Positions 8,413 to 53,628 of a stretch of 64,000 nt of DNA are shown here, piece by piece; position 1 is the stretch's first letter, and each line of letters opens with the position of its first letter. Location: assembly GCA_032622095.1 (NCBI GenBank), contig CP136063.1:68337897-68401896 (forward strand), in the 5' to 3' direction. Made by a program: the position numbers and the translations under genes. The notes beneath the pieces are model-generated. The model was given only the letters and a program-made list of their open reading frames with translations, was not told the DNA's origin and searched no databases. This DNA comes from Siphonodentalium dalli. Taxonomy: Eukaryota > Mollusca > Scaphopoda > Gadilida > Siphonodentaliidae.

Positions 8413-8416
8413 TTAA

Positions 8417-27295: not shown

Positions 27296-27458
27296 CCAAT
27301 GCATTATCTTATATATGCGAGTCTCCCATAGGGAGCCTTGCATATATAAGAGAATACATGTACCTGCCAATATTTACATTGACCTTGTAAGCCAGCGCAT
27401 TCTTCTATATATGCGAAGCTCCTTATTGGAGACTCGCATATATAAGAGAATGCACTAG
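27296..27458. repeat. Hairpin pair P1/P2 (CTCCC stem subtype)
   Basis: Two ~65-bp palindromes lie at 27296-27357 and 27391-27458. Each arm reads roughly 'GCCAATGCATT(C)TCTTATA' to 'TATGCGAG', with inner stems CTCCC/GGGAG (P1) and CTCC/GGAG (P2). P1 is in the inverted orientation relative to P2. They probably belong to a decayed element like 27625-28063; its termini could not be fixed. Confidence 0.8.
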
Positions 27459-27783
27459 CATAGGTTATTTAATGCTGCACCAGCGCAGCTCACGTAATTA
27501 TAGGTTTAACTAACAGGGTTACCCGGCGTTGCTCAGGTTAAATTGAGGTGATACTCACTGCTGCATAGTGTGGACATGCATGTGGTGGGAATAGAGAATA
27601 GTCTTGCGCAAATATATGTTTTAACCCTTTACCCAACAAAACGGCCAAAAACGCCCAAATAAAGCTTCAACAGCCTAAAATATCTTCGGCCTGCCTCAAT
27701 AACACCATACACATATGGATATCATTGGAACCGGTTCATTGACCACATTGTGATTGTTACAGTTATGCCCAGTTATGCCCTGT

Positions 27784-27852
27784 GCCAATGCATTCTCTTA
27801 TATATGCGAGTCGACCATAGGTCGCCTCGCATATATAAGAGAATGCATTGGC
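27784..27852 (-). repeat. Hairpin P3
   Basis: A 27-bp perfect outer stem (arm starts 'GCCAATGCATTCTCTTATAT'), a one-base mismatch (T opposite C), a 5-bp inner stem CGACC/GGTCG and loop ATA. Read on the minus strand it equals the P6 core, with mismatch G opposite A and loop TAT. Confidence 0.95.
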
Positions 27853-27968
27853 CTAAAAAAAATCTTACATTCTTTAACAATTTTATAATTTTTTCTTACA
27901 TTTTTTAACAATTTTTATAATATTTTTCTACATTCTTTGACAATTTTATCATTTTTAATATGTGTTAA

Positions 27969-28037
27969 GCCAATGCATTCTCTTATATATGCGAGACGAC
28001 CTATGGTCGACTCGCATATATAAGAGAATGCATTGGC
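27969..28037 (+). repeat. Hairpin P4
   Basis: Same 69-bp design as P3: perfect 27-bp outer stem, A opposite A mismatch, CGACC/GGTCG inner stem and loop TAT. It lies 5 bp from the right terminal repeat of the 439-bp element. Confidence 0.95.
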
Positions 28038-28739
28038 ACAGGGCCGTTCTGTTGGGTAAAGGGTTAAAGAAATGCCCTGTTGCTCATCTGTCCATGGCGT
28101 TGTAGTGGCCAATTATTCTCAGTTTAATATAAAAGTTGCTACATTTAACCCACACAGAGCGAGGTTTTAAGTTGTTTATGTTAGGCTATGAGTCTGTTCT
28201 AAAACTGAACGAATTTATCTGTATCGGGTGATATACCCTTGTCAGCTTCCAGTATTGAAAAGCGCTACTGACTGTTTTATTGTATCTCAGAAGAAACTAT
28301 ATTTGACTGCACACTGTCACCACTATTGCGAATGGGCCTTCAACGCATTCCCATCTCTCTCTTGACAAATTGTATCTATTTTGCGCAAAATATCTTGAAT
28401 GTGACAGACTCAACTGTGTTATAATACATTACCCAGTCTAACATGCCATTCTCTAACGATTCAAGGTCCCTCATTTGGAAAGAATATATGTATCTCTTAA
28501 ATATAATGATAAGTATACTTATAATGTTTCTTCTATGTATCTGTTTGCGAACTCACTGTATGAATGCCCAGATTACCGACCCATACAAATACCAGTTGAG
28601 AAGAGCACCACATGTCGACGCTGTGAAATTTGAACGCCAAAAACTCCTTACAGAACGAATTATATGGGGATGACTTTATAAAACTATTGTTGGTATTGGC
28701 GACTAAAACATTCTCATCAATGTTACACGTTGTGCGTCC

Positions 28740-30600
28740 CTTCTTGATGGAAATTGGTGCCAATCATATTTGTATCAGCTTTGGTGCTCATCCCTTCCAC
28801 AATAATGACTCGAATGGTGCCCCTTTCCCATATCTAAACCACATCCATTAGATTCCTGATATCACGGAGATGATTACTTATATATATGTGTGGTGTTAAT
28901 CAGTAACTAAACAAATTCTTATCAAATTTAGTGCTTCCCCATCTCTTACCCAAGCGACCCCCATTTAAATCACACGATTAAATTCCGAATATCATGGGAA
29001 GAATATGTATCCATTTGGAGGAAATGGGCGTTTAATATATGTTGGTTGCCCTCTGTGCACTCCTGACCAGAACAACACCATATCATGGAGAGTATATTGT
29101 ATCAGTTTGGGGAAATCCCCATTTTTTGCACCTAACACAAACAGCATATCTTTAGAAAAATTTCACCCTCACCATTATCTTGCTCGTAATAAGTTGCACC
29201 TGTTAGTCCCTCTGGTGCCATATAGATGACCAACGTGAGGGTATAATGTGACACAGACAGACCCGACATTCGCAAATGTAGGTACCAACCTTGGCGTCTT
29301 CAACGGGTCCACACAATTTGATTCCTCGTATCATTGGAGAATAATAAGTAAGAATTTGGTGAAACTATTTGCACTAATATTTCTATAGATGTTGTCCCTC
29401 CCCGCCCTATCCTTGACTCAAGTGGCGCCACTATGACATCTCTACTCACTATGAAGATGAATATATAACAAATTGGTGGAAATTGGTGACAAACAAATTC
29501 GTATCAGATATAGTGCTCCCATCTCTTAAACAAACGTCGCCAATTTGGCGTATTTTAACCAGACGATTAGACTCCTGATATCATAGAGATGATTATGTAT
29601 AAGTTTGGTGGAGAAAAATTTGTATCCATCTGATGGAAATCGGCGCTGAAAACAGTTTTATCAATTTTGGCGTCCCTCTCCCCTTCATTGCACCCCTGAC
29701 TCAAATGGTACCACTTTTGCCATCTCTAAATCACACCTTAAATGCCATTTTTGACATATTTAAATCACACACGACTTATGACAGCTTTAAGACACATCGT
29801 TACGCTCCTGATGTCATGAAGATGATAATGTATAAGTTTGGTTATAATCGGCGACCAAATACATTTTTATCAAATTAAGTGCCCCCTCCATCTTTCATCC
29901 AAACGGCACCAACTTGGCGTCTCCACATCACACGAGTATTTTCTCGTATCATGGAGAAGAATGTATCAATTTGGTGGAATTCGGCGCTAAAAGTTTGATA
30001 GATTGTTGTTGCCCCTCTCCCCTTCCGTGCACCCTTTACAATGCACGATTAGATTTCTCGAAACATGGAGAAGAATGTATATCAAGTTGGTGGAAATCGG
30101 CCTTAAAGAGTTTATAAATTTTCTTGACCCTCTCCCCTTCCGTGCACCCCTGACTCAAATGGCACCAATTTTGCCATATTTAAATCGCACAATTAGATTT
30201 CTCGTATCACGGAAAAGAATGGGTATCAATTTGGTGGAAATCGGCGTTAAAAAGTTTGATCAAATTTGGTGCCATCTCCCTTCCGAGCACCCTGACTCAA
30301 ATGTCGCCACTTTTGCCATCTTGAAATCACACGATTAGATTCCTAGTTTCATGGAGAAGAATGTGTATCAATTTTTTGGAAATCGGCGCTAAACAGGTTT
30401 ATCAATTATTGTGCCCCTCTCCCGTTCAGTGCACACCTGACTTAAATGGCGCCATTGTTGACATCTAAAAATCACACCATTAGATTCATCATATTATGGA
30501 GATGATTATGTATAAGTTTTGTGGAAATCGGCGACAATTTTTTTCTACTCCTCCCCATTTTGTGCCCCTGACAACAACAGCGTCACTTTAGAAAATTGTA
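28740..30600 (+). repeat. Degenerate ~143-bp tandem array
   Basis: 'GGAAATCGGCG' variants occur near 29636, 29977, 30091, 30236, 30378 and 30522, and the units from about 30091 on are spaced 142-145 bp. Each unit contains 'ATCATGGAGAAGAATGTAT', 'CCCCTCTCCCCTTC(C/A)GTGCACC' and 'AAATCACACGATTAGATT'. About 12 units, clearer toward the 3' end. Short open frames arise from the repeat and show no known domain. Confidence 0.8.
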
Positions 30601-30688
30601 ACCCGCACCATTATCTTTCTCGTAAAAAACGTACCCCAAATAGATCCCTCTGTTGTTATCTAGATGGTCACCTGTGAATTTCTATAGA

Positions 30689-30724
30689 ACACAGACAGAC
30701 AGACATTCGTAAATATATATATAG
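30689..30724 (+). repeat. Retroelement-type tail
   Basis: 'ACACAGACAGACAGACATTC' followed by a TA-rich end 'AAATATATATATAGATGG', as at the 3' end of RTE-like LINEs and their SINEs. It closes the 143-bp array region. Confidence 0.5.
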
Positions 30725-32084
30725 ATGGTCAGTTGTGATTTTGTGCGTGTACTCACTGCGTAGGATTTAAGTGCATTCAAGTGAATGAAGCCCTTCGACA
30801 ATTATATTCACAGTTAATTGGTTTATAGTTTTATGATAATCCACTGAACTCCAAACAGCAATGGAAGTTTTTGAAATACATATTGTTACAGTTTCAATAA
30901 AAATCGATATTCTTTTAAACACATTCAATATAATTCAGTAACTTCTGAGAGAATAGTTGATACAAGCGAGAACCTTGCTGCTAATATATAGTACAGCATA
31001 GTATAGTCTACGGTATATGCAAAGATAAATTATCACCATATACAAGCGACCAGGAAGTGTGAATAGAGATTCGCTTCTAGCGATTGTGGGTAACTCTAAC
31101 GAACAGGTCACGTGCTTCTACACGCTTGTTGTATATAAGTGACTGACTTGCGCGAGTACGACTTTCTCTACTTGTAAACACGGGGTATAATTCTATTTTT
31201 AAACATTTTGTTCTAACTCCATGATTCTGCATAGACTATCAACCATAGCAAGCTATATTGATCAATATGATTGCCAATATATAGTGAATAGCCACCATGA
31301 CTAGCTATATTATTATTATTGGCATTTGTAGAGCGCCTAATTCACAATATTGTGTTCATATGCACTTCATAATATACATGGGTGGTCAATTAAATATGTT
31401 CTATATATACATTAAAACCGTTATTCATGTGAGACCGTACGCAATTTTGAACAGGTTTGTTTTCAGTAGTTTCTCTCACTGCCAAAATCTGACCATCCAA
31501 TCTGGAGAGGATCCCATCAGTGACTAATGTACCTGGCAAGATATCGACTACCCACCATAGCTAGCTGCTTTGATCAATATTACCGAATAACCATTATGAC
31601 TAGCTAATAGTGACTAATGTAACTGGCTATATAGGCTTACCGCCCTGGATAGCTATAGTGGCTATTCTTACTAGCTGGTCCCATGTAGATATATTGTCCA
31701 TCCAGTGATGCTCTTGTTCAACATATGTCTGCATCTGAGCTGATAAGAAACGCTCTTTATTGATCATATAATTTATGTGTACCCATTTAAGTCGTCTGCG
31801 GTCAACGGCATCTACTCCACAACACTCCAATTTATCTCCGTGTTTCAATTTTCACCGACCAGTTTCAACAATTTTGGGTATATAAATAGTTGGTTAGTTA
31901 AATTATTATAATGCCCGTTTAATTAATACATCTGATGTATATAAGCCGGACAAACGAACAAATAGACAAATCAATTTATAAGTATAAAGCATTCTAGTTC
32001 TAAATTGTATGGTTTCTGTGAGCACCTTTAATATTTTGTCAAACTATCAGCGCATTCTCTATGGCTTCGCTGAAATTCGGAAAT
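30725..32084. other. Intronic sequence, scattered short motifs only
   Basis: Repeated 'GACTAGCTATA' and 'GACTAATGTA(A/C)CTGGC' motifs at 31235-31680. A 73-codon minus frame at 31627-31848 is not recognised and is not called. Confidence 0.35.
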
Positions 32085-32870
32085 GGCCGATTCACATTCT
32101 CAACAAAGTTATCTCCCTTATAAAATAATATTTTCATTTTTCTAGTTGGAGTTATTCTATGATAAGCATTGGTAACTTTGTGACAAAAAACACGTTGGAT
32201 TTTTGAAACGACTTGCAAATATAAATTTGTAACCATTTTTTAACAGGGATGGGTGAAATATTTAAATTTTTCTAGTTGCGGTTATTCGCAGAGAAGCATT
32301 GGCAACTATGTGACAAAAACACGTCGGATTTTTTAAACGACTTTTGTAACCCTTTTTAAACAAGGATTGGTGAAATATTTTCATTTTTCTAGTTGGAGTA
32401 ATCCTCTGATAAGCATTTGTAACTATGTGACAAAAAACATGTCGCATTTTTGTAACGACTTGCAAATGTAACTTTGTAACCATTTTTAAACAAGGATAGG
32501 TGAAATATTTAAATTTTTCTGGTTGGAGTTAGTTTCTGATAATCACTGGTAACTTTGTGACAAAAACACGTCGCATTTTTTAAACGACTTCCAAATGTAA
32601 CTTTGTAACCCTTTTTTAACTGGGATGAGTGAAATATTTTTATTTTTGTAGTTGCGGTTAGTCGCAGAGAAGCATTTGTAACTATGTGACAAAAAACATG
32701 TCGCATTTTTGTAACGACTTGCAAATGTAACTTTGTAACCATTTTTAAACAAGGATAGGTGAAATATTTTAATTTTTCTGGTTGGAGTTAGTTTCTGATA
32801 ATCACTGGTAACTTTGTTTAAAAAAACACGTCGGATTTTTTAAACGACCTCCTAATGTAACTCCAAATGC
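32085..32870. repeat. ~129-bp tandem array
   Basis: 'GTGAAATATTT' begins near 32251, 32370, 32500, 32629 and 32759 (spacing 118-130 bp). Units share 'ACTTTGTGACAAAAA(A)CA', '(C)GTCGCATTTTT', 'AACGACTTGCAAATGTAAC' and 'CATTTTTAAACAAGGAT'. About six to seven units; neighbouring units alternate between two variants (AGTTGCGG / AGTTGGAG). Confidence 0.85.
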
Positions 32871-32954
32871 CAAACAAAAAATTGGGCGCATTTTTAACCC
32901 GGTTACTGTCGGAACTAACACGAGCAAACGTTGAGTCGACTTGTAAAAAAAACC

Positions 32955-32996
32955 ACGACGCATTTGTAACCCAGTAACTGGTTACAAATGCGTCGT
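32955..32996. repeat. Perfect 17-bp-arm hairpin beside the 129-bp array
   Basis: Arm 'ACGACGCATTTGTAACC', 8-base loop CAGTAACT, then the exact complement. The arm sequence is the 'GTCGCATTT(TT)GTAAC' motif of the adjacent array, so the array unit seems to derive from, or end in, this foldback. Confidence 0.95.
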
Positions 32997-34470: not shown

Positions 34471-35129
34471 CGGTCGGCGCACACGATCCCGATTGTCCCC
34501 GATTAATCCGGCTGCAGGATAAATCTGGGACAATCGGGACCGTGTGAGCCTAACACTGGAGCGGATTTTGTCGGATCCGATTTAATCGGACGGATCAAAC
34601 TGAGTTTGATTTCATCAGGAGAATCCGGCTCGTGACGACATCAATGCGCGTGTTTTGCTTGTCACATGACCGATCGTCACATGACTAAAAACCTCATTCA
34701 AAAAAAGCGGCGACCGCTATTCGAAATTAAATCAAGAATTCTGATCGATCGACAAGGAACAAGGGCTGGTAGACCTGTGGGCAGAATAATATACAATAAT
34801 CACAACAAGAGGGCGGCAGCTGTGGAAAGATATGTGTATTACGCCAATTTACTGATATTACTTGTGACGTCAATATATTATTACTATTATAATTACCGGT
34901 ATTTAATTTATTATTAATAAATATTAGTATTTAGAAATACATATTAATATAAACCACCACGACTAGCTATAGTAACTGGCTAGACAGGCTGACACACCAG
35001 GTGGCTATATACTATAGATTATATTGTGTTCATAGCATGATTATATGACGGGAGTGAAAATCCTACTCGTGTGCGATTTATCCCGCAGCTGCATTTAACC
35101 GGGCACAATCGGGATCGTGTGCGACGACA
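34471..35129. mobile_element. Non-autonomous DNA element with foldback left end
   Basis: The left end 'GGCGCACACGATCCCGATTG' (34476-34495) is matched by 'CAATCGGGATCGTGTGCGAC' on the right (35105-35124). A third, inverted copy of the core, 'GACAATCGGGACCGTGTGAG', lies only ~35 bp inside the left end (34530-34549), so the left end is itself a hairpin. The terminal repeats run at least 50 bp ('GATAAATC' to the tip). No transposase. The element ends ~87 bp before exon 2. Superfamily unresolved; the target-site duplication is unclear. Confidence 0.65.
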
Positions 35130-35283: not shown

Positions 35284-36570
35284 GTATGATTTTTTTTTAA
35301 AGTCTTGCACAGACATATGTTATTATTATTATCTTTTTGCATGAATATATAGGTAGTATAGATAGAACAACAAAGTGTGTGAACTGGTTAACACTATTGC
35401 TCAAGTTGATTGTGACATGATGGTACAATGAGAAGCGAACGATTGAGTTTTGCCTCGAGGCACGAAAAACGAGTACGAAATATTAATCCGTTCACAGCAC
35501 TGTCGTTTCGGTGATAAACATGCCGTCTGGTGTGATTTTGGGATGTTTATAAGTAATTTTACAAATGCCAAATGCAGTTTTACCGGCGACGCAAGGAGGT
35601 TGGCCATTATATATACATATAAGCAATTGTATAAGTAAGAATAGGGCCGTGGTCTTGAAAAAAATGCAGATACAGGGTCGTTTTGTCAAAACAATATAAT
35701 TCCTAAATGCCTAAAAAAAAAAGAGAAGATAATTAAGATTAAAAATAATAACAATCTGTTTTTTTTCCAACAAATGTATTTTAACATTTTCCACTATATT
35801 ATTACCACCCCAAAACCAGTGAAATAGTAGTAACATTGTCACAAAGCAAGAACTTAAATTGCAAAACAAAAACCGTGTCCATGAATTAACACTGGAAAAA
35901 AGCTGACAATCATATTGTTAAGACAGAAATGCTTCTGAGGGACTGTATACAATCATTTACTTATCTATACAAATCTTATAAGATATGCATTGTGTTTAGG
36001 GATTTCATGTTAGAAAAGGGCCCACATGTGCATTCTAATGGTAAACATGTACATGCAGTATGGCAATATCGTTCAACTTCCACTTGTCGCCAAAAATGGT
36101 AAATTTTTAAAATAAATTTTACTCTAACTTGCAAGTTATTGCGTTAAAAATTGTCTTTCTGAAATAACGTGCATACCAAAAAGATTCACGCTTCAAACAT
36201 GCAAGTTTCCGGAACCATGATGCAAACATACCTGCATGACAGGGATGGTGCGTACGTACGCATGAGGAGGTCGTTAAATTATAAAACAAAAACTTCAGCC
36301 CAAGGTTAATTTGACGGGGAAGTATGATGATATGATATTGCCTACAGTGTATACATTTGTTATTCAATGGAATTTAGCATTCAATTGACTCGCGACATCA
36401 TGTTTGTGATTACTTATAAATACATGGGCGACAATCCCAATTAAAAGCAAACGATGTTGGTTGTTAATGGCTGGTGTAAAAGGTTATGATGGCAAGATCA
36501 TAAAGGTCAAAGTACAACATTTCTGGCATTTCAGAAATTTAAATCCTAGTTGTCTTTTCTTATTTTTCAG
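35284..36570 (+). other. Intron 2 of the ARM gene (1.3 kb)
   Basis: From GTATGA to 'TCTTATTTTTCAG'. No array or element was recognised. Confidence 0.65.
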
Positions 36571-36806
36571 AAAGTTGAGAGATAATGACATCATAAACAT
36601 CTTGATGCCATACCTGAATTCATCGAATGAAACAATAGTGATACTTGCTGCCACAACTCTCGCAGAGATTGTCAATGAGGAAGAGAGCAAGGAACTGGTA
36701 GCGGGTGAAAAGATTCTTGGTTTCATAATATATATATTGGAGGAGGCCTTGAATGATGCGACGGGAAGGCGATATCTTGGCTTCACCTGTCATGAGATAG
36801 CACGTG
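36571..36806 (+). CDS. ARM-repeat protein, exon 3
   Basis: Encodes ~78 residues: 'KLRDNDIINILMPYLNSSNE', 'TIVILAATTLAEIVNEEESK', 'ILGFIIYILEEALNDATGRR', 'YLGFTCHEIAR'. The acceptor 'TTATTTTTCAG' ends at 36570 and the donor GTAAGA starts at 36807. The first base completes the Arg codon of exon 2, and one base is left for an Ala codon completed by exon 4. The alternation of short and long helices (a PYL turn, 'LAATTLAEIV', 'GFIIYILEEAL') is a clear armadillo/HEAT signature. From memory it resembles the ARM section of invertebrate ARM/TIR proteins with 'LLTLAHLVDEEEN'-like repeats; this family match is recalled, not computed. Confidence 0.85.
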
Positions 36807-38609
36807 GTAAGATATTGACTGTTTAGTTTGTCAATATTTACGCTTTTGTGAAAGGTCCGAATAGATCTATAGCACACACGTAAAACGCGGAAGGAACAAG
36901 TTGATTTGCAGGTAATGCTCCCATCTGCTGATCTATAGAGTTGCCATCAAACGTTCTGCATTTTACACATCTTCATAAGTCTTCATCGACTTTATCATAC
37001 GTTAAACTCCGGGTATCCAGTACTCACTTCTCAATTTCACCAATGTCGTGTCAACTCCACATGACTGTTTCGTGAAAGTGCTTGATTTTCACAAAGTGAA
37101 TGTCCGATCGAAGCAGCACGAGCAAGTTTTCTCCTTTTAGTATAATTACACTATACATGTGTGACATCACAGGGTATACGTTTACGAAAATTTAACGCAC
37201 TGAGTGAGTATTCCTGGGACATATGGCAATTCCTTTGTCGTATGCTACCAAACGAGAGCCTACATGTGCGCTCTGTACGTCTTCTGCGAAAAATAATCAT
37301 GTTGACGGATTTCTACCAGGTTTTAGTTCATGCGAAAAATATAACCTACATCTTTACACGTAGCCTCGGCGATTATAGATAAATTATATCGACGTGCGTA
37401 ACAAAAACAGAACCTAATGTTAGAACTGAAAAGCTGATATGTCAACTCACTGACTTCACATACAAGATTTGCCAAAGAGTGGCTGACTTTGATTGATAGA
37501 GCCAGGATAGGCAAATAGCCTCATATAATGATTCCCAATGTTATTTTTGAGTTCCATAGATGGGATGGTTCTCTGGACATCACCTATACTACAAGTTCGT
37601 TACCACAATGGAATATGCTAAAAGCAAGAAACTAAAATGTCACGTGCCTTAATTTATTTTATTGTACGTAATTGTCTCATAATATGAAATACGGTTATAA
37701 TGATCTGCACTATATTGTGTAATGTATGTGTGGCGCCGGTATTTCTATGTTGAGCAAGTATATTTCCCAGTGGCATTATGATAGCAATAAAGAGTTGTGA
37801 TAGTGCTCCCGGATATTTGTAAATTTTGGTGGCCGAACGAAATCAACACCGCCAGATATTCATCAAGAAAGTCAACGAATAAAGTAAATTTTCCCCATAT
37901 GAAATAATATAGCCGTAAATGTTGATTACTCTCGGTCCTCTGCAGTGATTCCTTTGCGTTCGGCCATCTCGCTATGGTTTAATAATAATTAAATAAGCAC
38001 ATTCAGAGTGAGTTCCTGGCTTAAAGTGGGCAGGATATTTTATATTGGCAAATTTCATGTCAGCTTTTTACTATCTAAGAACCCATTTTGATATGTTTTC
38101 GGTTATAAAAAACGATTTTTTTTTCAAACCTATTCACAACATACCATACATAACATAATAGTATCTCATTGGACGAATATATATACGTCGTTTGCTAAAT
38201 GCCCTTTGAACAGCGATATAGGTGTACATTTGTGAACTTTTATAATTGTGAGTTTTGTTTTGTTGGCCATTTTGGCGACCATCTTTGATCAAATTGATCG
38301 ATTTCAAGCGTTCGTGATTGACAATAACCATATATAAAACTCTGTACACTTTAAAATCAAATATTAATCTAGAACCACGAGAAGCAAGTTTTGGGGAAAT
38401 CTGTTGAATGCTGCGATAAAACAGCCATAGTTCTACAAATTTATAAAGTATAACATAACTCCAAGTTCTTTCGCGAATATGGAGTAAATATATTCGCAGA
38501 ATTTCACTTTGCCCCAAATCAGGAATGATATCAATGAACGGGACCTAACTTTACCCCACCTATCTTGTTCATTATTATGTCCTTCAATTTTTAAGCAATG
38601 TTAACAAGA

Positions 38610-39399: not shown

Positions 39400-39480
39400 A
39401 TTTGGACTTAAGTGCAAATATTTGCACTTAAGTACAAATAATTGCACTTAAGTGCAAATAATTGCACTTAAGTCCAAATA
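39400..39480. repeat. Nested palindromic 'CTTAAGTGCAAAT' repeat
   Basis: Four consecutive 'CACTTAAGT(G/A/C)CAAAT' palindromes 20-22 bp apart, each self-complementary around CTTAAG. The block starts with 'TTTGGACTTAAG' and ends with 'CTTAAGTCCAAAT', so the whole 80 bp is also roughly palindromic. It abuts the reverse-transcriptase fragment. Confidence 0.9.
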
Positions 39481-39484
39481 AATA

Positions 39485-39725
39485 GAAAATGTGAAAACGG
39501 CTTGCCATAAAGGTCTTTTGTATAATATTTCTAAACTTGGAATAAAGGGAAAAGTATATGAACTAATTTCATCTTGTCTTGAATGTCGTCAACAGAGAGT
39601 TATAATCGATGTTAGTTCTGATTGGCAAAATGTTTCCGCAGGTGTACATCAAGGGTATTTATTAGGTCCATTGTTATTCCTGATATACACCAATGACATA
39701 GCCAGACATATCACGTGCAACATAC
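39485..39725 (+). pseudogene. LINE reverse-transcriptase fragment
   Basis: The frame reads 'ACHKGLLYNISKLGIKGKVY', 'ELISSCLECRQQRVIIDVSS' and then 'SAGVHQGYLLGPLLFLIYTN' + DI. This is the fingers-to-palm part of a CR1/jockey-type reverse transcriptase, with the conserved 'GVxQGxxLGPLLFLIYxNDI' block (Pro replaced by His). The catalytic YADD block and everything after it are missing, and the frame stops soon after the match. Both ends are truncated: the left side meets a palindromic repeat, the right side a 'GACGTTG'-type repeat. Non-functional. Confidence 0.85.
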
Positions 39726-39729
39726 GTCA

Positions 39730-39900
39730 GGATCCGACGTTGAAACAACGTTTAGAGTTCTCGGTGTTTTGACGCCGATCCACCGTCTGCGCCCGACGTT
39801 AGAGCAACGGTAAACTGACGCTGTTACGACGGTGATGTGCGACGTTGAAACAACGTTCGCTACACCCGTTGGATAGACGTTATACCAACGTTGAATTTGA
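39730..39900. repeat. 'GACGTTGAAACAACGTT' repeat cluster
   Basis: The self-complementary motif 'ACGTTGAAACAACGTT' occurs at 39737 and 39841, with variants 'GACGTTAGAGCAACGG' (39796) and 'GACGTTATACCAACGTTGAA' (39874). A degenerate palindromic repeat about 35-50 bp apart. Class unknown. Confidence 0.7.
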
Positions 39901-40214: not shown

Positions 40215-41985
40215 CCCAAATACCACATAGAAACACCCCGACCCCCCACCCATCACCCCCGGGGGTGCCACCCCGAGGGGGTGAAAATGGGGTGTGGACC
40301 ATTTTCGAGAACGGTAAGGATTTCGACCGATTTGACGGCATGGTTGGGTGGCACGCCCCAAATACCACATAGAAACACCCCGACCCCCCACCCATCACCC
40401 CCGGGGGGTGCCACCCCGAGGAGGTGAAAATGGGGTGTGGACCATTTTCGAAAACGGTAAGGATTTCGACCGATCTGACGGCATGGGTGGGTGGCCCGCC
40501 CCAAATACCACCTAGAAACAACCCGACCACCCACCCATCACCCATTGATGGGTGGGGGTCGGGGTGTTTCTATGTGGTATTTGGGGCGGGCCACCCACCC
40601 ATGCCGTCAAATCGGTCGAAATCCTTACCGTTCTCGAAAATGGTCCACACCCCATTTTCACCCCCTCGGGGTGGCACCCCCCGGGGGTGATGGGTGGGGG
40701 TCGTGGTGTTTCTAGGTGTTATTTGGGGCGGGCCACCCACCCATGCCGTCAAATCGGTCGAAATCCTTACCGTTCTCGAAAATGGTCCACACCCCATTTT
40801 CACCCCCTCGGGGTGGCACCCCCCGGGGGTGATGGGTAGGGGGTCGGGGTGTTTCTAGGTGGTATTTGGGGCGGGCCACCCACCCATGCCGTCAAATCGG
40901 TCGAAATCCTTACCGTTCTCGAAAATGGTCCACACCCCATTTTCACCCCCTCGGGGTGGCACCCCCGGGGGTGATGGGTGGGGGGTCGGGGTGTTTCTAT
41001 GTGGTATTTGGGGCGGGCCACCCACCCATGCCGTCAAATCGGTCGAAACCCTTACCGTTCTCGAAAATGGTCCACACCCCATTTTCACCCCCTCGGGGTG
41101 GCACCCCCCGGGGGTGATGGGTGGGGGGTCGGGGTGTTTCTAGGTGGTATTTGGGGCGGGCCACCCACCCATGCCGTCAAATCGGTCGAAATTCTTACCG
41201 TTCTCGAAAATGGTCCACACCCCATTTTCACTCCCTCGGGGTGGCACCCCCCGGGGGTGATGGGTGGGGGTCGGGGACGTTTCTAGCTGTTATTTGGGGC
41301 GGGCCACCCACCCATGCCGTCAAATTGGTCGAAATCCTTACCGTTCTCGAAAATGGTCCACACCCCATTTTCACCCCCTCGGGGTGGCACCCCCCGGGGG
41401 TGATGGGTAGGGGGTCGGGGTGTTTCTAGGTGGTATTTGGGGCGGGCCACCCACCCATGCCGTCAAATCGGTCGAAATCCTTACCGTTCTCGAAAATGGT
41501 CCACACCCCATTTTCACCCCCTCGGGGTGGCACCCCCGGGGGTGATGGGTGGGGGTCGGGGATGTTTCTAGCTGTTATTTGGGGCGGGCCACCCACCCAT
41601 GCCGTCAAATTGATGGGTGGGGGTCGGGGTGTTTCTATGTGGTATTTGGGGCGGGCCACCCACCCATGCCGTCAAATCGGTCGAAATCCTTACCGTTCTC
41701 GAAAATGGTCCACACCCCATTTTCACCCCCTCGGGGTGGCACCCCCCGGGGGTGATGGGTGGGGGTCGTGGTGTTTCTAGGTGTTATTTGGGGCGGGCCA
41801 CCCACCCATGCCGTCAAATCGGTCGAAATCCTTACCGTTCTCGAAAATGGTCCATACCCCATTTTCACCCCCTCGGGGTGGCACCCCCCCGGGGGTGATG
41901 GGTGGGGGGTCGGGGTGTTTCTATGTGGTATTTGGGGCGGGCCACCCACCCATGCCGTCAAATCGGTCGAAAACGACATTTTTGA
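40215..41985. repeat. GC-rich 143-bp satellite with internal inversion
   Basis: The anchor 'ATGCCGTCAAATCGGTCGAA' starts at 40601, 40743, 40886, 41028, 41171, 41314 (variant), 41457, 41599 (cut short), 41666, 41808 and 41952: spacing 142-144 bp except a 67-bp deleted unit. Two further units (40215-40545) are in the opposite orientation, and the switch lies at 'CACCCATTGATGGGTG' around 40537-40555. Each unit has the palindromic GC block 'GGGGTGGCACCCC'. Open frames on both strands are by-products of the array. Confidence 0.95.
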
Positions 41986-42045
41986 AAATAAGGAATAAGG
42001 AATAGGGAATAAGTTCCAATTGTCATGTCTGTCACTTTTTACCAT

Positions 42046-42185
42046 TTTTTCTTACATTCTTTAACAATTTTATAATTTTTAATGTGTTAAGCCAATGCAT
42101 TCTCTTATATATGCGAGGCGATCTATGGTCGACTCGCATATATAAGAGAATGCATTGGCACAGGGCCGTTCTGTTGGGTAAAGGG
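42046..42185. mobile_element. Right half of a MITE 'A'-type element
   Basis: The right terminus 'GGCCGTTCTGTTGGGTAAAG' + GG (42164-42185) followed by TTAA (42186-42189) is identical to that of 27625-28063, and the preceding 'CATTCTTTAACAATTTTAT' spacer and hairpin P5 are collinear. The left half is missing; the sequence passes within ~60 bp into the 143-bp satellite. Confidence 0.85.
42091..42159 (+). repeat. Hairpin P5
   Basis: 69-bp palindrome with perfect 27-bp outer stem, G opposite A mismatch, inner stem CGATC/GGTCG (one G-T wobble) and loop TAT. Confidence 0.95.
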
Positions 42186-42261
42186 TTAAAGATACGTCAC
42201 CAGTGAAACCAACGCATATGAAATGTACCGGAGTCGATGTCACACGTGTGAACTGGTTTTC

Positions 42262-43886
42262 ACTGTTATATCACGGTACATGGAATTCACTGTTATATCT
42301 CGGTACATGGAATTCACTGTTATATCTCGGTACATGGAATTCACTGTTATATCTCGGTACATGGAATTCACTGTTATTTCTCGGTACATGGAATTCACTG
42401 TTATTTCTCGGTACATGGAATTCACTGTTATATCTCGGTACATGGAATTCACTGTTATATCTCGGTACATGGAATTCACTGTTATATCTCGGTACATGGA
42501 ATTCACTGTTATATCTCGGTACATGGAATTCACTGTTATATCTCGGTACATGGAATTCACTGTTATATCTCGGTACATGGAATTCACTGTTATTTCTCGG
42601 TACATGGAATTCACTGTTATTTCTCGGTACATGGAATTCACTGTTATATCTCGGTACATGGAATTCACTGTTATTTCTCGGTACATGGAATTCACTGTTA
42701 TATCTCGGTACATGGAATTCACTGTTATATCTCGGTACATGGAATTCACTGTTATATCTCGGTACATGGAATTCACTGTTATTTCTCGGTACATGGAATT
42801 CACTGTTATTTCTCGGTACATGGAATTCACTGTTATTTCTCGGTACATGGAATTCACTGTTATATCTCGGTACATGGAATTCACTGTTATATCTCGGTAC
42901 ATGGAATTCACTGTTATTTCTCGGTACATGGAATACACTGTTATATCTCGGTATATGGAATTCACTGCTGTTATTTCTCGGTACATGGAATTCACTGTTA
43001 TTTCTCGGTACATGGAATTCACTGTTATTTCTCGGTACATGGAATTCACTGTTATATCTCGGTACATGGAATTCACTGTTATTTCTCGGTACATGGAATT
43101 CACTGTTATATCTCGGTACATGGAATTCACTGTTATTTCTCGGTACATGGAATTCACTGTTATTTCTCGGTACATGGAATTCACTGTTATTTCTCGGTAC
43201 ATGGAATTCACTGTTATTTCTCGGTACATGTAATTCACTGTTATATCTCGGTACATGGAATTCACTGTTATTTCTCGGTACATGGAATTCACTGTTATAT
43301 CTCGGTACATGGAATTCACTGTTATTTCTCGGTACATGGAATTCACTGTTATTTCTCGGTACATGGAATTCACTGTTATTTCTCGGTACATGGAATTCAC
43401 TGTTATATCTCGGTACATGGAATTCACTGTTATATATCGGTACATGGAATTCACTGTTATATCTCGGTACATGGAATTCACTGTTATTTCTCGGTACATG
43501 GAATTCACTGTTATTTCTCGGTACATGGAATTCACTGTTATATCTCGGTACATGGAATTCACTGTTATTTCTCGGTACATGGAATTCACTGTTATATCTC
43601 GGTACATGGAATTCACTGTTATTTCTCGGTACATGGAATTCACTGTTATTTCTCGGTACATGGAATTCACTGTTATATCTCGGTACATGGAATTCACTGT
43701 TATATCTCGGTACATGGAATTCACTGTTATATCTCGGTACATGGAATTCACTGTTATTTCTCGGTACATGGAATTCACTGTTATTTCTCGGTACATGGAA
43801 TTCACTGTTATATCTCGGTACATGGAATTCACTGTTATATCTCGGTACATGGAATTCACTGTTATTTCTCGGTAAATGGAATTCAC
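42262..43886 (+). repeat. 27-bp minisatellite, ~60 units
   Basis: The unit 'CATGGAATTCACTGTTATWT' + CTCGGTA repeats about 60 times with very few changes. The only common variant is A/T at W. Single exceptions include a 3-bp insertion at ~42967, 'TATATATCGG' at ~43433 and 'ATGTAATTC' at ~43228. Since 27 is divisible by three and no unit holds a stop in several frames, frames of 573 (plus), 336/206 (plus) and 559 (minus) codons result. I consider all of them artefacts of the array: no signal, no domain, synonymous constraint absent. The array begins ~75 bp after the TTAA-element end. Confidence 0.97.
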
Positions 43887-45324
43887 TTGCATTTTGGGTT
43901 TCTTTGTTGGAAGCTTCAAAATAGTCGGAAAGGGGAAATATTCTTTAGGTATTGTGGCGCAGTTCTTGTAATCATTTTGTGGAAAAGATATAGCTTCACT
44001 TAGTCACGTCCTGTTGTCATTGCATCCAATTTCTTCCAATAATCTATCGTTACTAACAGATCTAGTCAGAGTAGTGTCTATATGAGCTGATTTTAGATGA
44101 ATACGTTCTAATTTATCAGAATCAGTATGAGTACAGTTTGTCATATAATACTGCCATATTCCAAACATGGCCTTGCGTACTAAAGTTAAATAACATACCG
44201 CTCAGTGGGGGGGGGGTCTGCAAACAAATAATCCGTACATAGGGCAAACTGCTTTGTCATCACCCTTAATTCTGACTAACGTATATCTCTCAGTGATAGA
44301 ATATTATATGCAGAAACAGTTATTTCCCTGTTAACCGTTTAATTGTACACCTATGATGATCTTGAGCGCTAATAACAATTATTCGCATAAAATATGTGTT
44401 GCCTGCGAATGTGATTGTTCTATCTTGTGTTTTTATACAATTTAAGGTGGAAGCGATATGTATGTTTTCAATAATAAGGGAGAAAAGCGGCGATGATCTA
44501 GAGATGAACACCAGTAACAGATAATTCTTTGCGAGAAGGGTCTACTAGATTCGGATTAAGATTATCGTTCATGAGGACCAGTGGGTGTGAAGAAAATATT
44601 TTGTACATATGCATGTATTTGACCACCCCTATTTTGATGGTCAAATGGGTGGATATTTAGACAGAGTAGTATACTGCCCTGTTCTATGCTGCTATTGAAA
44701 ACTTCTTAATTAGATCTGGCTTCAGATCACTAATGGCATTAGCAGTTGAACACTTATCATATGCATCGATCTGTATAAATTGGGTCATTGTTGAGTGGAG
44801 CACATTCAGCTATCCCGGGACAACTGATATCATGTTCATTATATATTAGCAGGATAATTTATATATGTTATAATATTGTTTTGCTATATATATCTCTCCA
44901 GTTAATTATAAATTATTCCCTCAAAACTTATTGACCATGATGTTATATTTGGACTTCATACCTCGGTAATCTAAGGCTAACATATATATTCACCCTCATA
45001 CATGTACCAAATAATGTTACTTAGACTACTGGACAATAGACAAAATAAAAATAAAAACCCCAAGCACCTGGGGGGGGACAAATTTCCGTACACTAGGCGC
45101 AAAAACACAATTTTCGCCCTCTGTATATCCACCACCCCCTAATTTTTTTTTCTGATTATAGGATAGGGACCCACCCCCTCCAAACTGCTTCAAATGATTA
45201 TTTTATTCAGTTGTCCTGATCTTATCCGATCAATGTTCCGTATCATGATTATAGAAGCATTCTTACTTTTTATTTACCAACACAGACTGTAAACTATTCT
45301 CTAATAAATGTGGGTTGTAGGGCC
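43887..45324. other. Intronic, nothing recognised
   Basis: Only homopolymer G tracts (44203-44216, 45070-45078) and AT-rich sequence. Confidence 0.35.
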
Positions 45325-47608: not shown

Positions 47609-47612
47609 GTAA

Positions 47613-48120
47613 AAGATATTTCACAGTTCTGCCTACCATTTATAAAATGTAGAATATATATCACAGTCTTTCCTACTGTTTATAAAATTAAGAATATATT
47701 TCACAGTCTTTCCTACCGTTTATAAAATGTAGAATATATATAGTCTTTCATACCGTTTATAAAATGTATAATATATTTCACAGTTATTCCTAGCGTTTAT
47801 AAAATGTATAATATATATCACAGTCTTTCATACCGTTATAAAATGTAGAATATATATCAGTCTGCCCTACTGTTTATAAAATGTAGAATATATATCACAG
47901 TCTGCCCTACTGTTTATAAAATGTAGAATATATGTCACAGTCTTTCCTACTGTTTACAAAATGTAGAATATATTTCACAGTTCTTCCTGTCGTCTATTAA
48001 ATGTAGAATATATATCACAGTCTTTCCTACCGTTTATAAAATGTAGAATATATTTCACAGTTCTTTCTACCGTTTATAGTATGTAGAATATATTTCAGTC
48101 TTTCCTACCGTTTATAAAAC
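47613..48120 (+). repeat. ~40-bp tandem array directly after the exon 4 donor
   Basis: The unit 'CACAGTCTTTCCTACCGTTT' + ATAAAATGTAGAATATATAT repeats about 12 times with a 36-45 bp period. It starts within ~10 bp of the donor at 47609. Confidence 0.92.
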
Positions 48121-48829
48121 TGATAAAACATAATTTATAAACACTCTTCTTATATACATCAATTTTAGCAACACTAACAGGGGATTAACTCCAGGAAATA
48201 TTAAATAAAAAATCGCTTAAAATTTCACCCAAATGAGCGCTGGAAAAACTGATCTAATCTAATTTATCACCTGATACAATTCCGATGTCACGTCAGTTTA
48301 AATGCGCATGTTTTAAAAGGGTACGTATTATGTTTTGGTCCGCCCATCAACCTGTCCGTCCATTCATAGTTCGTTTCCGGATGATAACTTTAGTTCTACT
48401 GAATCATAAAATAAAGGCCAAGTTCAATATTGGAGTATGGTCGTCCATATTTATCAGGTACGGCCCTTGTGCTAATGTTTTGGTGTCTGGATGATAACTT
48501 TATTCAATGTAAACTGTGTGGTATGCAGGTTTACTTAAAGTTGATTGAATTGAGATTTGGTATTGATGTTTTAAACAATATTTAGCTGATATAACTCCAA
48601 GTGATGGAATCTTATACCACCGTGGCAATGAAATTTGTTATAGCATATTTGGAAGATGACAAATCTTCTTAGAACCCTTCCATCTTGGTTATATTTTCAT
48701 TTGGCCATCGGCGAGTAACTGACAACTGCACCAGATAACGATTTCGAGTTACAAAGTCCACGATGGAAACAATTAGATTTGAACCCGTATCACCAGCGCT
48801 CGAGGGTTAGACGGTTTGGAGTTGTACCC
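48121..48829 (+). other. Intron 4, no recognised feature
   Basis: A 69-codon frame at 48285-48494 overlaps phrases such as 'CCGTCCATTC' and 'GGATGATAACTTTA' that recur in interspersed repeats; not coding. Confidence 0.4.
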
Positions 48830-49350
48830 CCAGCCACCCACTTACCGAGGCCCGATCACTACCAAGCTTGGTGTGTGGGTAAATTGGCTCAAAAAGCAGC
48901 GTGCTTTTCAATGCATTCCAGCAAAATTAAAAAAAATTCTTAACTTAGAAGCGGTATACAGTTTTATTATGCACCTGACCTTGATTCGGGGTTATATAGT
49001 GGATACATTCGTCCGTCCTTCCGTCCGTAACAAGAATTTCACAACACAGCTCAAGTATCTATAGTCCAATTTGAATGTCACATTTGGTATGCCAGCATTG
49101 TGGAAATGATCTCCACGTAGTCCAGATTTTGTCCGTACATTATTCAGAGTTATGGCCCTTTGCTCGACTTAATGTAAAACGCGCATTCCGTCCGTCCATA
49201 TTAAACATTTCACTACACCACAGCTCAACTTAGTCCAAGTCTGCTCGTATAACCAGGTAAGATATTTGGATAGCAAATGCTGTTTTTCGTCCGAGACGCC
49301 CCATTGCCTATGACACGAGTAATGCGTTAGTGACCAGCTCACATAAAACC
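48830..49350 (+). repeat. Mollusc-type interspersed repeat ('ATGGCCCTTTGC')
   Basis: Contains 'CGTCCGTCCTTCCGTCCGT', 'AGTCCAATTTGAATGTC', 'TTTGGTATGCC', 'GCATTGTGGAA(A)TGATCTCCAC' and 'AGAGTTATGGCCCTTTGCT'. The same series recurs at 51490-51620, giving two dispersed copies. Confidence 0.65.
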
Positions 49351-51180
49351 TCAAATAAATGTAATCAAATATTACAATTGCAATAATAAACGGGTTTATC
49401 CCGTAGAAGACATGATATTTGTTCTGAAAACCACATCACTTGTAAAATGAAGTCGGTAATTTAATTTGAAATAATGACATTTCCGCAGAGTTTATATATA
49501 TTATAAAAAGTATGCAAACTAAATACCGGAGAAATTATTCTAGCAATTTTAAGGTAAACAAACAAAACCACGTGAACGTAAATTGAATTAATTCTATCAG
49601 TTATACCCGGTAATTTGTAAATTAAAAATTGCATATATATCGCGATACGTTCCGTGTAAGAAATGTTTAATTGATAAGTAATAGAGGGATCGAAGGCACC
49701 CAAGATGGCGCTGCCAATCTAAATTGTCTTAGCTCCAACAAAAAACCAAACGGAATATGTTACAGCAATATTTCCAACGGGCAGAACGGAGAAGATAATA
49801 ACTCTGAATTGGCCCATGTATTTACATTGAAATAGAAACGTTTTTAGATCAGTTTACAAGAAAAAAAGACGTAACCGCACAAGCGCTTCACCTATTTTCG
49901 TGCAACACCACGTGAATACATTTTTTCCGAAGAAAAAATATGCCCCCAAACGAGGACGAAAAAACAAGTTCCAATATCCCGCAAGAAATTGCTATTATTT
50001 TGACATCTACAAAAGGAGTCATTGATATATAGAATGTTATCTCAAGAAATCTTCAAAAGTTCACAAAACCAAATGAAAATGGGCAAATGAATTTGCAAGT
50101 CAGTCCACGAATGACCAGTACTTGGAACAAATCTTTACAATCCCATTTCATACAACCAAAGAGAGGCATATATGATGGTTACAATATCGAATTTTGAATA
50201 GAATCCTCAGTACAAATAATTATTTGAAAACGATCAAGGATCACATATAATAGTTTTTGTCAGCCATGTAAAGTTTGTCTTTAGAAAAAATGGCAAATTG
50301 ATTCTCATCTTATGGAGTTATGCTGACAAAATCAGCTTCTACCTTTACTTTATGGATTTCAGGGAAAGAAAATTATACCTTGAATTATTTAAATCTGATA
50401 TTAAAGGGATATATTTTAATAATAAATTTGCAAATTGTGAACTCAGTACTGAAGGAGCTCTCAGAATGATAATACAGCCATTAAAGGCAAATCAGTTTGC
50501 ATCAAAGGTGAATTTCATAAGTAATTACGAAAGAGATTGGGGACTACAATTGTGATTATTGAAAGACAAAGATAATATTCCGTAATCTTAATTTTTTTCC
50601 TTTTCTTCGAAGAAATTTACTTGAGACCGGGACAGACTACATTATCATTCTATGAAAAGGGATGCAAACATTCATTGGTGTATAAAAAAAAGATAAAAAA
50701 TATGTTGACTGAATTCAACCATAATTTGTGTTGGTCCTTTTTGCTATGCTCATTGTTTTACAGTGGTTACTCAGTGTGAATGATTGTGAGTGCAAGAGAA
50801 TGTGAGAAAGTGAATGATAGAATATATATATTTGCTGAACGTGAGGCCAACGGGTACCATTCGCTGTGATTATTAGAAATGTGTCATATTTATAATTATA
50901 ATTATTTTCTAATAATTATTTTTAAAAGAAGCAATATAGAACCACTTACAGTTAAAATAAATACATAATAGTGGCGGATGTTGGAATAAAATAACAGTGC
51001 ACATTGTCGGCGATCTAGTGTACTCGATTGTTTGAGTGATTTTGGGTGCACTGGATTGTTGGCATAGAAGCCGAACTTAGCCGAGTACATTACGGAACAC
51101 TTTGGCTTTCAGTTAAAAGGTAAACAAACCGATGTTAGTCCTAATAAACCGGAATATTATATGTGTAATTTAAAAACATG
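49351..51180. other. Intron 4, unrecognised frame at 50298-50555
   Basis: An 85-codon + frame ('YLYFMDFRERKLYLELFKSD', 'CELSTEGALRMIIQPLKANQ') has a protein-like composition but is preceded by stops, lacks splice context and matches nothing I know. It may be a fragment of an old mobile-element gene. The rest shows nothing. Confidence 0.3.
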
Positions 51181-51361
51181 AAAGTTATTATAAACAATTA
51201 TGCCCATCAGATGTCACTCTTTCCGATATATATATAGCATCAGGTATTTATTTGTTAGGTAAAATCAAGTAAAGTTATTATAAACAATTATGCCCATAAT
51301 ATGTCACTCTTTCCGATATATATAGCATCAGGTATTTATTTGTTAGGTAAAATCGAGTAAA
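51181..51361 (+). repeat. 90-bp tandem duplication
   Basis: 'AAAGTTATTATAAACAATTA' begins at 51181 and again at 51271. The two copies differ by a CAG/AAT change, a 2-bp TA length change and one A/G substitution. Confidence 0.95.
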
Positions 51362-51479
51362 ATAGATTAGATTCCCGCCACCAACCCTGAGCATAACTCA
51401 TGTCATAGAAAGAGCAATGGGGTGGTCTCAGACGAAAAACAGCATTTCGCTGTTCAAATACCTTAGCTGGTTTTCGTAC

Positions 51480-52690
51480 GAGCAGGCTTGGACTAAGCTC
51501 AACTATCGATAGTCCAATTTGGATGTCCTTTGGTATGCCGATAGACTAGCATTGTGGAAGGATCTCCACATAGTGCAGGTTTTGTACTCCAAAGTTATGG
51601 CCCTTTGCTTAGTGTAAACTCGTCCATAACAAACGTTATGCAGTGGATGTCTTTATCATTGAATTTCGTTGTCGTTTGGCATGGTGATAGCACAAATTGG
51701 AGGAAAGGATATCCACATACTACGGGTTTCGTCCACTAATTTGTACCAGAGTTACCGCCCTTGTTTGACTCGGAAATTTGTGAATTTTGTGTCTAAAAGA
51801 AGATTTCAGGTTGTAACTTGGGCAAGGATCTGCTGATTCAAGTGTGCTTTGGTATGTTGATAGCACAGTTCTGGGGAAAGAATACGGACAGTGTTCCCAA
51901 TGGGCCGAGAAATCCATAGGATAATATTTTGGCCAATTCTGATTTTTTCAAATTAAAACCTCATTTTCTGGTCTCACAATTAATGAATATTTTAGTTTTA
52001 TTTAACAACTAACATTCTATATTCTATTATTTCCATACCATCAAATACCATGTCTAGACTTCTTTAATCCCACATTGTTACTTGAGAAAATAAAACCACC
52101 CACCATCTACCATTTAGCCTTATGACAGACCCATAATTCACTAGTGTTAATCCTAATTACTGTTTTATTACATATGGTTGATAGTGCACTGCCGTTGGTG
52201 TCTTTTGAAAATATATTAAGCTGTATCACCTACTTAGTTAGCAGATGCTGATAATATAAGATGTATTATCATGTCGCTCTCGTTACAAAATCAGTTTGGG
52301 CTTTTGAATAAGATTTTGGGGGAATTTCTTTTGGCCATTTTCGAAAATAATTGGCCATTGGCCTATGACAGCGAACACTGGATACCGACGTACTACAGGT
52401 TTCCTCCATTCAGTTTTATCAGAGTTACAGCCCTTGTTTGACTTGCGACTTTCTTAGTTTTGTCTCTGTATGAACATTTCAGCTTGTACCCTGGTCATGG
52501 ACCATCGGATACGGTTGTGCTTTGGTGTATTGATAGCGAGTTTAAGAGGATAGAATAGCCACCTCTTGGATTTAGAAAATAAAAAAAAACAATTTCCATC
52601 CATTGCACACTCTCTAAACTGAGCGTCGGGGCATATGCCAAGCTTGGCGTTGCACTTGTCGGTTTTTCGTGTGCCAACTTCAACTAATTA
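51480..52690 (+). repeat. Degenerate repeats of the 'GAGTTA(T/C)(G/A)GCCCTTG' type
   Basis: Successive blocks share 'AGTTATGGCCCTTTGCTTAG' (51593), 'AGAGTTACCGCCCTTGTTTG' (51749) and 'AGAGTTACAGCCCTTGTTTG' (52421), along with 'GTGCTTTGGTAT(G)TTGATAGC'. They form a diverged, partly tandem family with the copy at 48.8-49.3 kb. Short frames here are not genes. Confidence 0.65.
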
Positions 52691-52785
52691 TATATCCTTA
52701 TGGAATTAAATTTGAAACAACCCAACCTGTATATTATGGGGCGAAATGTATACCATGCCTGGCTTTGCTATTGTTTTATTTTCAG

Positions 52786-52977
52786 ATGCTATGGAGGCCA
52801 TCTGGACGCTGTCATTTGATGATTACAATAAGTCAGAGATAGTGAACACAGAAGGACTTATAGACAGAGTGTTAGAAATGAAGAAAACAGCTAAAGGATC
52901 CATTAAGAAAGCTGCCGATGGAATTATATGGACTATGAGGGATACACTGAAAGAAACGTCCAAATACTCCAACATCG
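52786..52977 (+). CDS. ARM-repeat protein, exon 5 (last one in window)
   Basis: Encodes '(Y)AMEAIWTLSFDDYNKSEI', 'VNTEGLIDRVLEMKKTAKGS' and 'IKKAADGIIWTMRDTLKETS' + KYSNI. The acceptor 'TTGTTTTATTTTCAG' ends at 52785; the donor GTATGT starts at 52978, leaving phase 1 (first base of a likely Gly). 'A(M)EAIWTLSFDD.N' and 'KKAADGIIWTMRD' are clear armadillo helices. In the ARM/TIR-type proteins I recall, this position ('ALWVIK..') is soon followed by a TIR domain. I looked for a 'MISYQWD'-like exon between 53 and 64 kb and saw none, so the gene probably continues beyond the window or the family match is wrong at its C-terminus. Confidence 0.87.
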
Positions 52978-53189
52978 GTATGTAACATATGCTTCATTCA
53001 CCAGAACCTAACAGACGTATATGAATCATCGTCCATATTGAATTATATGATGTCAGTTTTACATTCAGTTTCCGGGGCATAACATAATAAATACGAACGG
53101 AACACACCTGCCTGTAAATGCTTCTATCAATTAATATTTTTTTTCTGGTATAATACAACCTATCTGGACAGTTTTATGGCCAACTTTAA

Positions 53190-53628
53190 CCCTTTGAGTG
53201 CCACGGGCCGATCTCATCGGCCATAATTTTTTTATTTTTTTTTAGAATTTGTTTTTGTTTTGGGTTGAATTTTGTTCGGGTATGCTTTAGCATGCTATAG
53301 CGAATTTAAAAAACAAACTGGATAACACCTTAGGGGCATGTTATAACTCAAAACTATCACCAAGTATTCATAGTAATAATTTTGATGCCCATAAAAACAT
53401 AAGATTCCATGGCACTAAACCTACTAAATATACATGTTAAAGAATATAAGAAAAAATTATTAAAATTGTAAAAAATTGTAAAAAATAATAACAAAAGATG
53501 AAAAATTGTTAGGCCAATACATTCTCTTATATATGCGAGGCGACCTATGGTCGACTCGCATATATAAGAGAATGCATTGGCACAGGGTATATGGGTTGAT
53601 ACAAAAATCGGACCTGGCACTCAAAGGG
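53190..53628. mobile_element. 439-bp piggyBac-like MITE 'B' with one hairpin
   Basis: TTAA flanks (53186-53189 and 53629-53632). Terminal repeats 'CCCTTTGAGTGCCA' are exact, then diverge (CGGGCC / GGTCC). A subterminal palindrome 'GGCCGATCTCATCGGCC' follows the left end. It contains hairpin P6 near the right end. It is exactly as long as MITE 'A' (439 bp) although the termini differ after CCCTTT. It lies just after exon 5. Confidence 0.85.
53513..53581 (+). repeat. Hairpin P6
   Basis: 69-bp palindrome: 27-bp outer stem with one A-C mismatch, the constant G opposite A mismatch, CGACC/GGTCG inner stem and loop TAT. Confidence 0.95.

Follow-up and report, generated by a model that had tools for sequence, protein, structure and literature searches.

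A window of 64 kb (the whole stretch of DNA analysed here) contains six palindromic sequences whose inner stems come in two types, and whose outer and inner stems are separated by a site that is unpaired in each copy. An earlier note took this pattern as a sign that the hairpin structure, including its mismatch, is selected for or homogenised by repair. The question raised by this locus is thus what the hairpins are, and whether anything keeps them paired.

Anatomy and folding of the six hairpins

All six hairpins exist and are listed below in the order of their starts, together with the number of Watson-Crick pairs formed out of 32. The first one begins at 27295 and not, as had been noted before, at 27296.

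27295..27363, + strand: left hairpin of the inverted pair E0; inner stem CTCCC/GGGAG, 26/32 pairs
27391..27459, - strand: right hairpin of E0, in opposite orientation; inner stem CTCCA/AGGAG, 26/32 pairs
27784..27852, + strand: left hairpin of element E1, 160-228 bp from the left tip; 32/32 pairs
27969..28037, - strand: right hairpin of E1, 27-95 bp from the right tip; 32/32 pairs
42091..42159, - strand: hairpin of element E2, 27-95 bp from the right tip; 31/32 pairs
53513..53581, - strand: hairpin of element E3, 48-116 bp from the right tip; 31/32 pairs

When read from the element tip towards the interior, all six sequences align without gaps over 69 nt. The consensus consists of an outer stem of 27 bp, a T opposite C, an inner stem of 5 bp and the loop ATA. 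The outer stem had been described as common to all copies, and it is indeed the consensus, but it is intact in only three of them; the copy at 53513 has one break, that at 27391 five, and that at 27295 six. Likewise, both types of inner stem can be recognized, but not all of these stems are intact, as the fifth pair of 27391 is A-A and 42091 (CGACC/GATCG) has lost one pair. The four near-intact hairpins (two in E1, one each in E2 and E3) are separated from each other by only one or two differences. A CCCTGT flank on the outer side of the hairpin is common to five of the six copies.

Folded as RNA, each hairpin of about 69 nt reaches -31 to -54 kcal/mol and beats all 200 of its own dinucleotide shuffles (z -7.1 to -14.3); folded as DNA, the hairpins are likewise far better than shuffles. 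A covariance model built from the six copies gave 27 matches up to an E value of 1 when the window was scanned. The six known sites scored 81-102 bits on the better strand of each, whereas the next matches, at 39406-39473 (34 bits) and 34477-34549 (33 bits), are other palindromes. A seventh strong copy was not found in the window.

The surrounding DNA has few long open reading frames (ORFs), many tandem arrays, and exon-like as well as reverse-transcriptase-like fragments. A bacterial-mode search returned no tRNAs in the window, and a bacterial or organellar origin was rejected on the ORF, repeat, tRNA, exon-like and reverse-transcriptase-like evidence. Judged by eye, the DNA looks like that of an animal, perhaps a lophotrochozoan. 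Pfam matches on a minus-strand ORF of 559 aa (42240-43919) turned out to be artefacts of a 27-bp tandem array.

Short TTAA elements as hosts of the hairpins

Four of the six hairpins lie within short, non-coding elements with TTAACCCTTT ends (E1, E2 and E3), which have the following parts.

27621..28067, no strand assigned: E1, short and complete, bounded left and right by TTAA; 447 bp with the two TTAA counted in
27621..27646, + strand: left end of E1 with TTAA, TTAACCCTTTACCCAACAAAACGGCC; 25/26 identical to the right end, TTAA included
28042..28067, - strand: right end of E1 with TTAA, TTAACCCTTTACCCAACAGAACGGCC read inward; inverted copy of the left end, 25/26
27863..27956, no strand assigned: AT-rich interior of E1, three tandem 31-bp units
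42033..42189, - strand: E2, of E1 type but with the right half only; 92% identical to E1 over 159 columns
53186..53632, no strand assigned: E3, likewise short, complete and bounded by TTAA on either side; 447 bp with the two TTAA counted in, different tip TTAACCCTTTGAGTGCCA
53206..53222, + strand: left subterminal palindrome of E3, GGCCGATctcATCGGCC; bp 17-33 from the tip

The two hairpins of E1 have opposite orientations, one in each end, and face inward from the tips. E2 has the same 26-bp end as E1, finishing at 42189, with TTAA and the TTAACCCTTT tip at its right end only; its left part is missing and a GC-rich tandem array adjoins. The tip of E3 differs from that of E1 and stands with TTAA at both ends, while the hairpin is the same. 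Directly after TTAA, both E1 and E3 read CCCTTT, and the two elements have the hairpin and the AT-rich interior in common (84% over 169 columns). In all four copies with a known tip, the orientation of the hairpin relative to that tip is constant. The middle of E1 matches its own reverse complement (78% over 276 columns) in blastn with a free register, whereas only 30 of 57 positions match when the interiors of its two halves are cut to a fixed length. Since the two procedures disagree, this half-versus-half comparison was kept out of the pooled count given below.

Non-autonomous piggyBac-like families are defined by a TTAA target and terminal inverted repeats beginning with CCY. E1 and E3 have TTAA at both ends, E2 at its right end, and the terminal inverted repeats of the two complete elements begin with CCY; they agree at 25 of 26 positions in E1 and, ungapped and with TTAA included, at 20 of 26 in E3, the first 18 being identical. 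Neither element contains an ORF of 100 aa. In their anatomy, E1 and E3 are non-autonomous piggyBac-like elements (TTAA miniature inverted-repeat elements, MITEs), and so is the right half of E2. Targeting of TTAA by piggyBac itself is described in PMC7351741. Pairs of TTAA-anchored ends that agree at at least 20 of 26 positions within 1 kb occur four times in the window, namely in E1, in E3, in a palindromic tandem repeat (39408-39471) and at 15948-16439, but in none of 20 first-order Markov sequences. Lowering the requirement to 18 of 26 positions gives seven pairs in the window versus zero to four in the Markov sequences.

An ORF at 55561-55866, outside E1-E3, matches DDE_Tnp_1_7 with an E value of 0.028, which is below the curated cut-off of Pfam, and further searching for this candidate recovered nothing of that kind. 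Exact element patterns had no match in viral_contigs, and a 16-letter pattern (15 letters specified) gave 59 scattered prokaryote matches in genome_contigs, which we take as chance. No paper on the 69-bp module was among the matches listed in a full-text search of the open-licence literature, and element stretches entered as literal letters led to a single, unrelated paper.

The remaining two hairpins form the inverted pair E0 at 27.3 kb, whose members are 27 bp apart. TTAACCC tips were looked for in E0 and none is present; beyond CCCTGT and the hairpin, it has little in common with the other elements. E0 is older than the TTAA-ended copies. The earlier note had overlooked the main point, the subterminal position of four hairpins in TTAA-ended miniature elements.

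Inheritance, decay and possible maintenance of the pairing

Since four hairpins belong to the ends of transposable elements, the shape that the six have in common is mostly due to shared descent, with one change that altered both sides of the stem together. The ancestor deduced for E0 and the E1 type differ at exactly four bases, and these form two adjacent Watson-Crick pairs, an outcome that four random changes would produce with a frequency of about 7e-5 (200,000 trials) in a test chosen after the change was seen. The claim that the inner stem had changed on both sides stands for two pairs, and the carriers of this change are the two members of a single inverted pair. The difference is one event or tract held by both E0 hairpins, and the two types of inner stem are two lineages, E0 versus E1/E2/E3. 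As only one further paired change is seen, and that at chance level, the outcome that the earlier note had set against its own reading, two old lineages, is largely what we find.

Compared with their ancestor, the E0 hairpins have acquired 6 and 9 private changes. These broke 12 pairs, versus 12.8 +/- 1.5 in random simulations (P(<=12) 0.39), and yielded one compensated pair where 0.45 would be expected (P(>=1)=0.38). The latter, A5-T65 to G5-C65 in 27391, is a change on both sides that had previously been missed. Since pair breakage is close to the random expectation, resident (inserted) copies show no sign of maintained pairing, and pairs are lost as neutral drift predicts.

In a covariation test on the six copies, both sides had changed at three pairs, in five cells; none of 500 shuffles attained the cell count or the covariation score, but 23 attained the pair count and 151 the number of further pair types, and it has to be considered that related sequences can exceed shuffles even without a structure and that cells count sequences, not events. 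Structures slid along the alignment had at most one pair with both sides changed.

As for the site between the stems, G opposite A in five copies and A opposite A in one had been reported, and this is confirmed on the other strand, where the site reads T/C in five copies and T/T in one from the tip inward. There has been only a single substitution at this site, C to T in 27969, and of the six single changes possible two give a Watson-Crick pair whereas four leave the site unpaired. The "never paired" state is therefore explained by inheritance, and a mismatch that is a functional part of a maintained structure is not supported.

A different picture emerges when the elements are compared with each other. 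Between E1 and E2, 26 of 26 positions agree in the tip region, 67 of 69 in the hairpin, and 50 of 58 in the interior, with two gap columns; between E1 and E3, the hairpin agrees at 68 of 69 positions and the interior at 59 of 78, with 12 gap columns. Pooled, this amounts to 3 mismatches in 138 hairpin positions versus 27 in 136 aligned interior positions (Fisher p 1.2e-6; p 0.043 for E1/E2 and 2.2e-5 for E1/E3 separately), gap columns being left out and E1 entering both comparisons. Since the interior is an AT-rich tandem repeat, its divergence may be overstated; for this reason, and because E1 is used twice, the better conservation of the hairpin relative to the adjoining interior is suggestive, not proof. 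Taken together with the unlikely two-pair change, it suggests that something in the source elements kept or rebuilt the palindrome. Selection or repair-driven homogenisation, as originally put forward, may thus have acted there, but it is unsupported in the resident copies.

Explanations for the palindrome and known systems

What can be read directly from the DNA is the anatomy of the elements, the presence of the module in both ends of E1, its sharing by elements with different tips, and its conservation over the interior. On these grounds we are inclined to regard the hairpin as a 69-bp palindromic module inside the ends of short, non-autonomous piggyBac-type elements, which would act in cis during transposition, be kept in source elements and decay after insertion. 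Such a module would operate at the DNA level and, by analogy, would most likely be a subterminal, two-fold-symmetric protein-binding site; in the simplest form, it would be contacted by the dimeric DNA-binding domain of a piggyBac-like transposase provided in trans. As only elements with working ends would leave copies, the palindrome would be preserved in the sources and would degenerate once inserted. The inner-stem difference would then go back to a single paired change that arose in a source lineage through selection or palindrome-templated repair and was inherited by its copies, and the unpaired site would be an inherited feature and not a demonstrated functional part.

Some observations argue against this proposal. 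The palindrome is far longer than the 19-bp repeat of piggyBac, and its distances from the tip differ (27-95, 160-228 and 48-116). The candidate transposase piece stays below the Pfam cut-off, the analysis covers only six copies, and E0 is devoid of TTAACCC tips. Moreover, palindromes near the tip are not enriched at TTAACC sites of the window (3/51 vs 21/863 at other TTAA sites; Fisher p 0.15). One of these three sites looks unrelated. At 55135, two palindromes of 22 bp follow a TTAACC tip, one of them at bp 14-35.

It is also possible, though doubtful, that the palindrome is passive, i.e. that it arose by a replication or repair accident in an ancestral element and has been hitch-hiking since, the inner change being one template switch or gene conversion between the arms. 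The neutral decay of pairing in E0 fits this scenario, as do the unrelated palindromes elsewhere in the window, and the bases that changed make up two neighbouring pairs, just as a single tract event would leave them; the four near-intact copies, being so similar, may simply be young. Yet a mere passenger accounts poorly for a hairpin and tip conserved over the interior, for the retention of the module in elements with different tips, and for its constant orientation.

An unlikely elaboration of the transposition model is that the palindrome represents an exchangeable cassette, i.e. a long symmetric recognition site or a cruciform-forming site common to different TTAA families of one genome that keep their own tips, whose arms co-change with the binding protein. 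The inner stems of E0 and E1 would then be two recognition types. If this were true, the piggyBac model of palindromic subterminal sites would extend to a much longer, family-shared site.

It is quite improbable that the hairpins are transcribed into miRNA- or siRNA-like small RNAs and selected for their RNA fold. Other MITEs are known to give small RNAs, the size and folding energies would be suitable, and the + strand has exon-like ORFs close to the elements, which would allow transcription. In addition, 29 Rfam matches with E values up to 1 fall in the region 27201-28100, which contains four of the six hairpins; miRNA families account for 27, and the best match, MIR841 (E 2.4e-15), spans both E1 hairpins. 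However, all 29 are below their gathering scores (74 bits vs 200 for MIR841) and scattered over many families, and we read them as generic matches to long hairpins; at the gathering score, Rfam has no match in the whole window. Changes compatible with G-T pairing are not in excess on either strand (5 on one and 3 on the other, with an expectation of about 4.6 for each), and a loop of only 3 nt is badly suited to the microprocessor. Selection on RNA was therefore dropped as the first choice, given the lack of both Rfam matches at the gathering score and a G-T bias.

Finally, that the palindrome is a mobile element of its own, inserted several times into other elements, would account for its three contexts (E0, E1/E2, E3) and for how little else E0 has in common with the others, but it is highly improbable in view of the CCCTGT flank, the AT-rich interior common to E3 and E1 and the constant orientation, and was rejected as no target duplication was seen by eye at the hairpin edges.

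We therefore return to the module in the ends of TTAA elements. Seen in this light, the puzzling hairpins belong to an ordinary class of objects, miniature TTAA transposons. They also illustrate how a copied palindrome can give the impression of RNA-like covariation, with paired changes between source lineages and free decay in inserted copies. The MADE1/miR-548-type hairpin is a mariner-type MITE that is nearly one palindrome and has the size of a miRNA precursor. In contrast to that system, where the whole element forms the hairpin, the module described here is located inside TTAA elements.

Close parallels are found in piggyBac and piggyBat. The first 16 bp of piggyBac are held by the catalytic and insertion domains; next to them in the left end, at bp 17-33, lies a palindromic repeat to which the cysteine-rich domain (CRD) binds as a dimer (PMC7351741). 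The repeat is present in both ends, at different distances from the tips (PMC11707139). Like these 19-bp repeats, the module is palindromic, subterminal, present in both ends (in E1) and asymmetric relative to the tips, and the short left palindrome of E3 even lies at bp 17-33. Unlike them, the 69-bp hairpin has about 3.5 times their length, arms of 33 bp, another sequence and other tip distances; none of its four tipped copies (27-95, 160-228, 27-95 and 48-116) occupies the bp 17-33 position, which is taken only by the short palindrome of E3. For piggyBat, several palindrome-like sites reaching bp 120 (PMC11707139) and a subterminal sequence that restricts activity have been described, and the palindromes of the left end are bound by paired CRDs according to a 2026 preprint (PMC13405395). 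The module resembles the G and P motifs of piggyBat in that palindrome-type sites are located within about 120 bp of the end. In the account given by PMC11707139, however, those motifs are short, imperfect palindromes in the left end only, the innermost at bp 107-120. Among TTAA MITEs, E1 and E3 are typical in having TTAA at both ends, CCC tips, inverted repeats and a length of a few hundred bp, but they differ in carrying an inward-facing, near-perfect palindrome of 69 bp in one or both ends. The one unusual feature of these otherwise ordinary elements is this long palindrome, which is common to TTAA elements with different tips.

A candidate piggyBac-like end at 55135 and other TTAA-anchored ends

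At 55135-55216 the tip TTAACCATTTGAACCC is followed by two perfect 22-nt palindromes (AGCGGCCGG....CCGGCCGCT), located at 55152 and 55195 and spaced 21 bp apart.
Downstream of the tip and palindromes, the ORF at 55561-55866 gives a weak DDE_Tnp_1_7-like match. A broken piggyBac-like element may have its left end here. A tip also labelled TTAACCATTTGAACCC lies at 8416 on the minus strand; it differs from that at 55135 in 1 of 17 positions, and this site is possibly a further end of the same family. A Pfam search of the reading frames in 7001-8502, the region of the 8416 tip, returned no transposase. The window scan gave an additional TTAA-anchored end pair, TTAAAGGTACTCAATCCG (15948-16439, 492 bp), whose ends match at 21 of 26 positions and whose tips are not CCC.

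Tandem repeats

Near E2, the right half of a TTAA-ended hairpin element, 40215-41972 is a GC-rich array of ~143-bp tandem units; a strand switch near 40546 creates a 147-bp inverted repeat. Immediately adjoining E2, a 27-bp unit is repeated ~60 times in tandem (42259-43887), and this array is open on both strands. The Pfam matches there are false, being produced by the repeat itself. A palindromic tandem repeat with the 20-bp unit TTGCACTTAAGTGCAAATAA lies at 39400-39481, and immediately past it comes a reverse-transcriptase-like fragment (39482-39769), whose RVT_1 match, at E 0.0004, falls short of the curated cut-off.

Exon-like reading frames

Three exon-like ORFs, which by eye resemble armadillo/HEAT-type repeats, were recorded:
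26338-26901, plus strand, exon-like ORF
36410-36823, plus strand, exon-like ORF
52716-52982, plus strand, exon-like ORF
Only the second gave matches, all weak (best V-ATPase_H_N, E 0.005, below the cut-off). The elements may be located in introns of a single gene.
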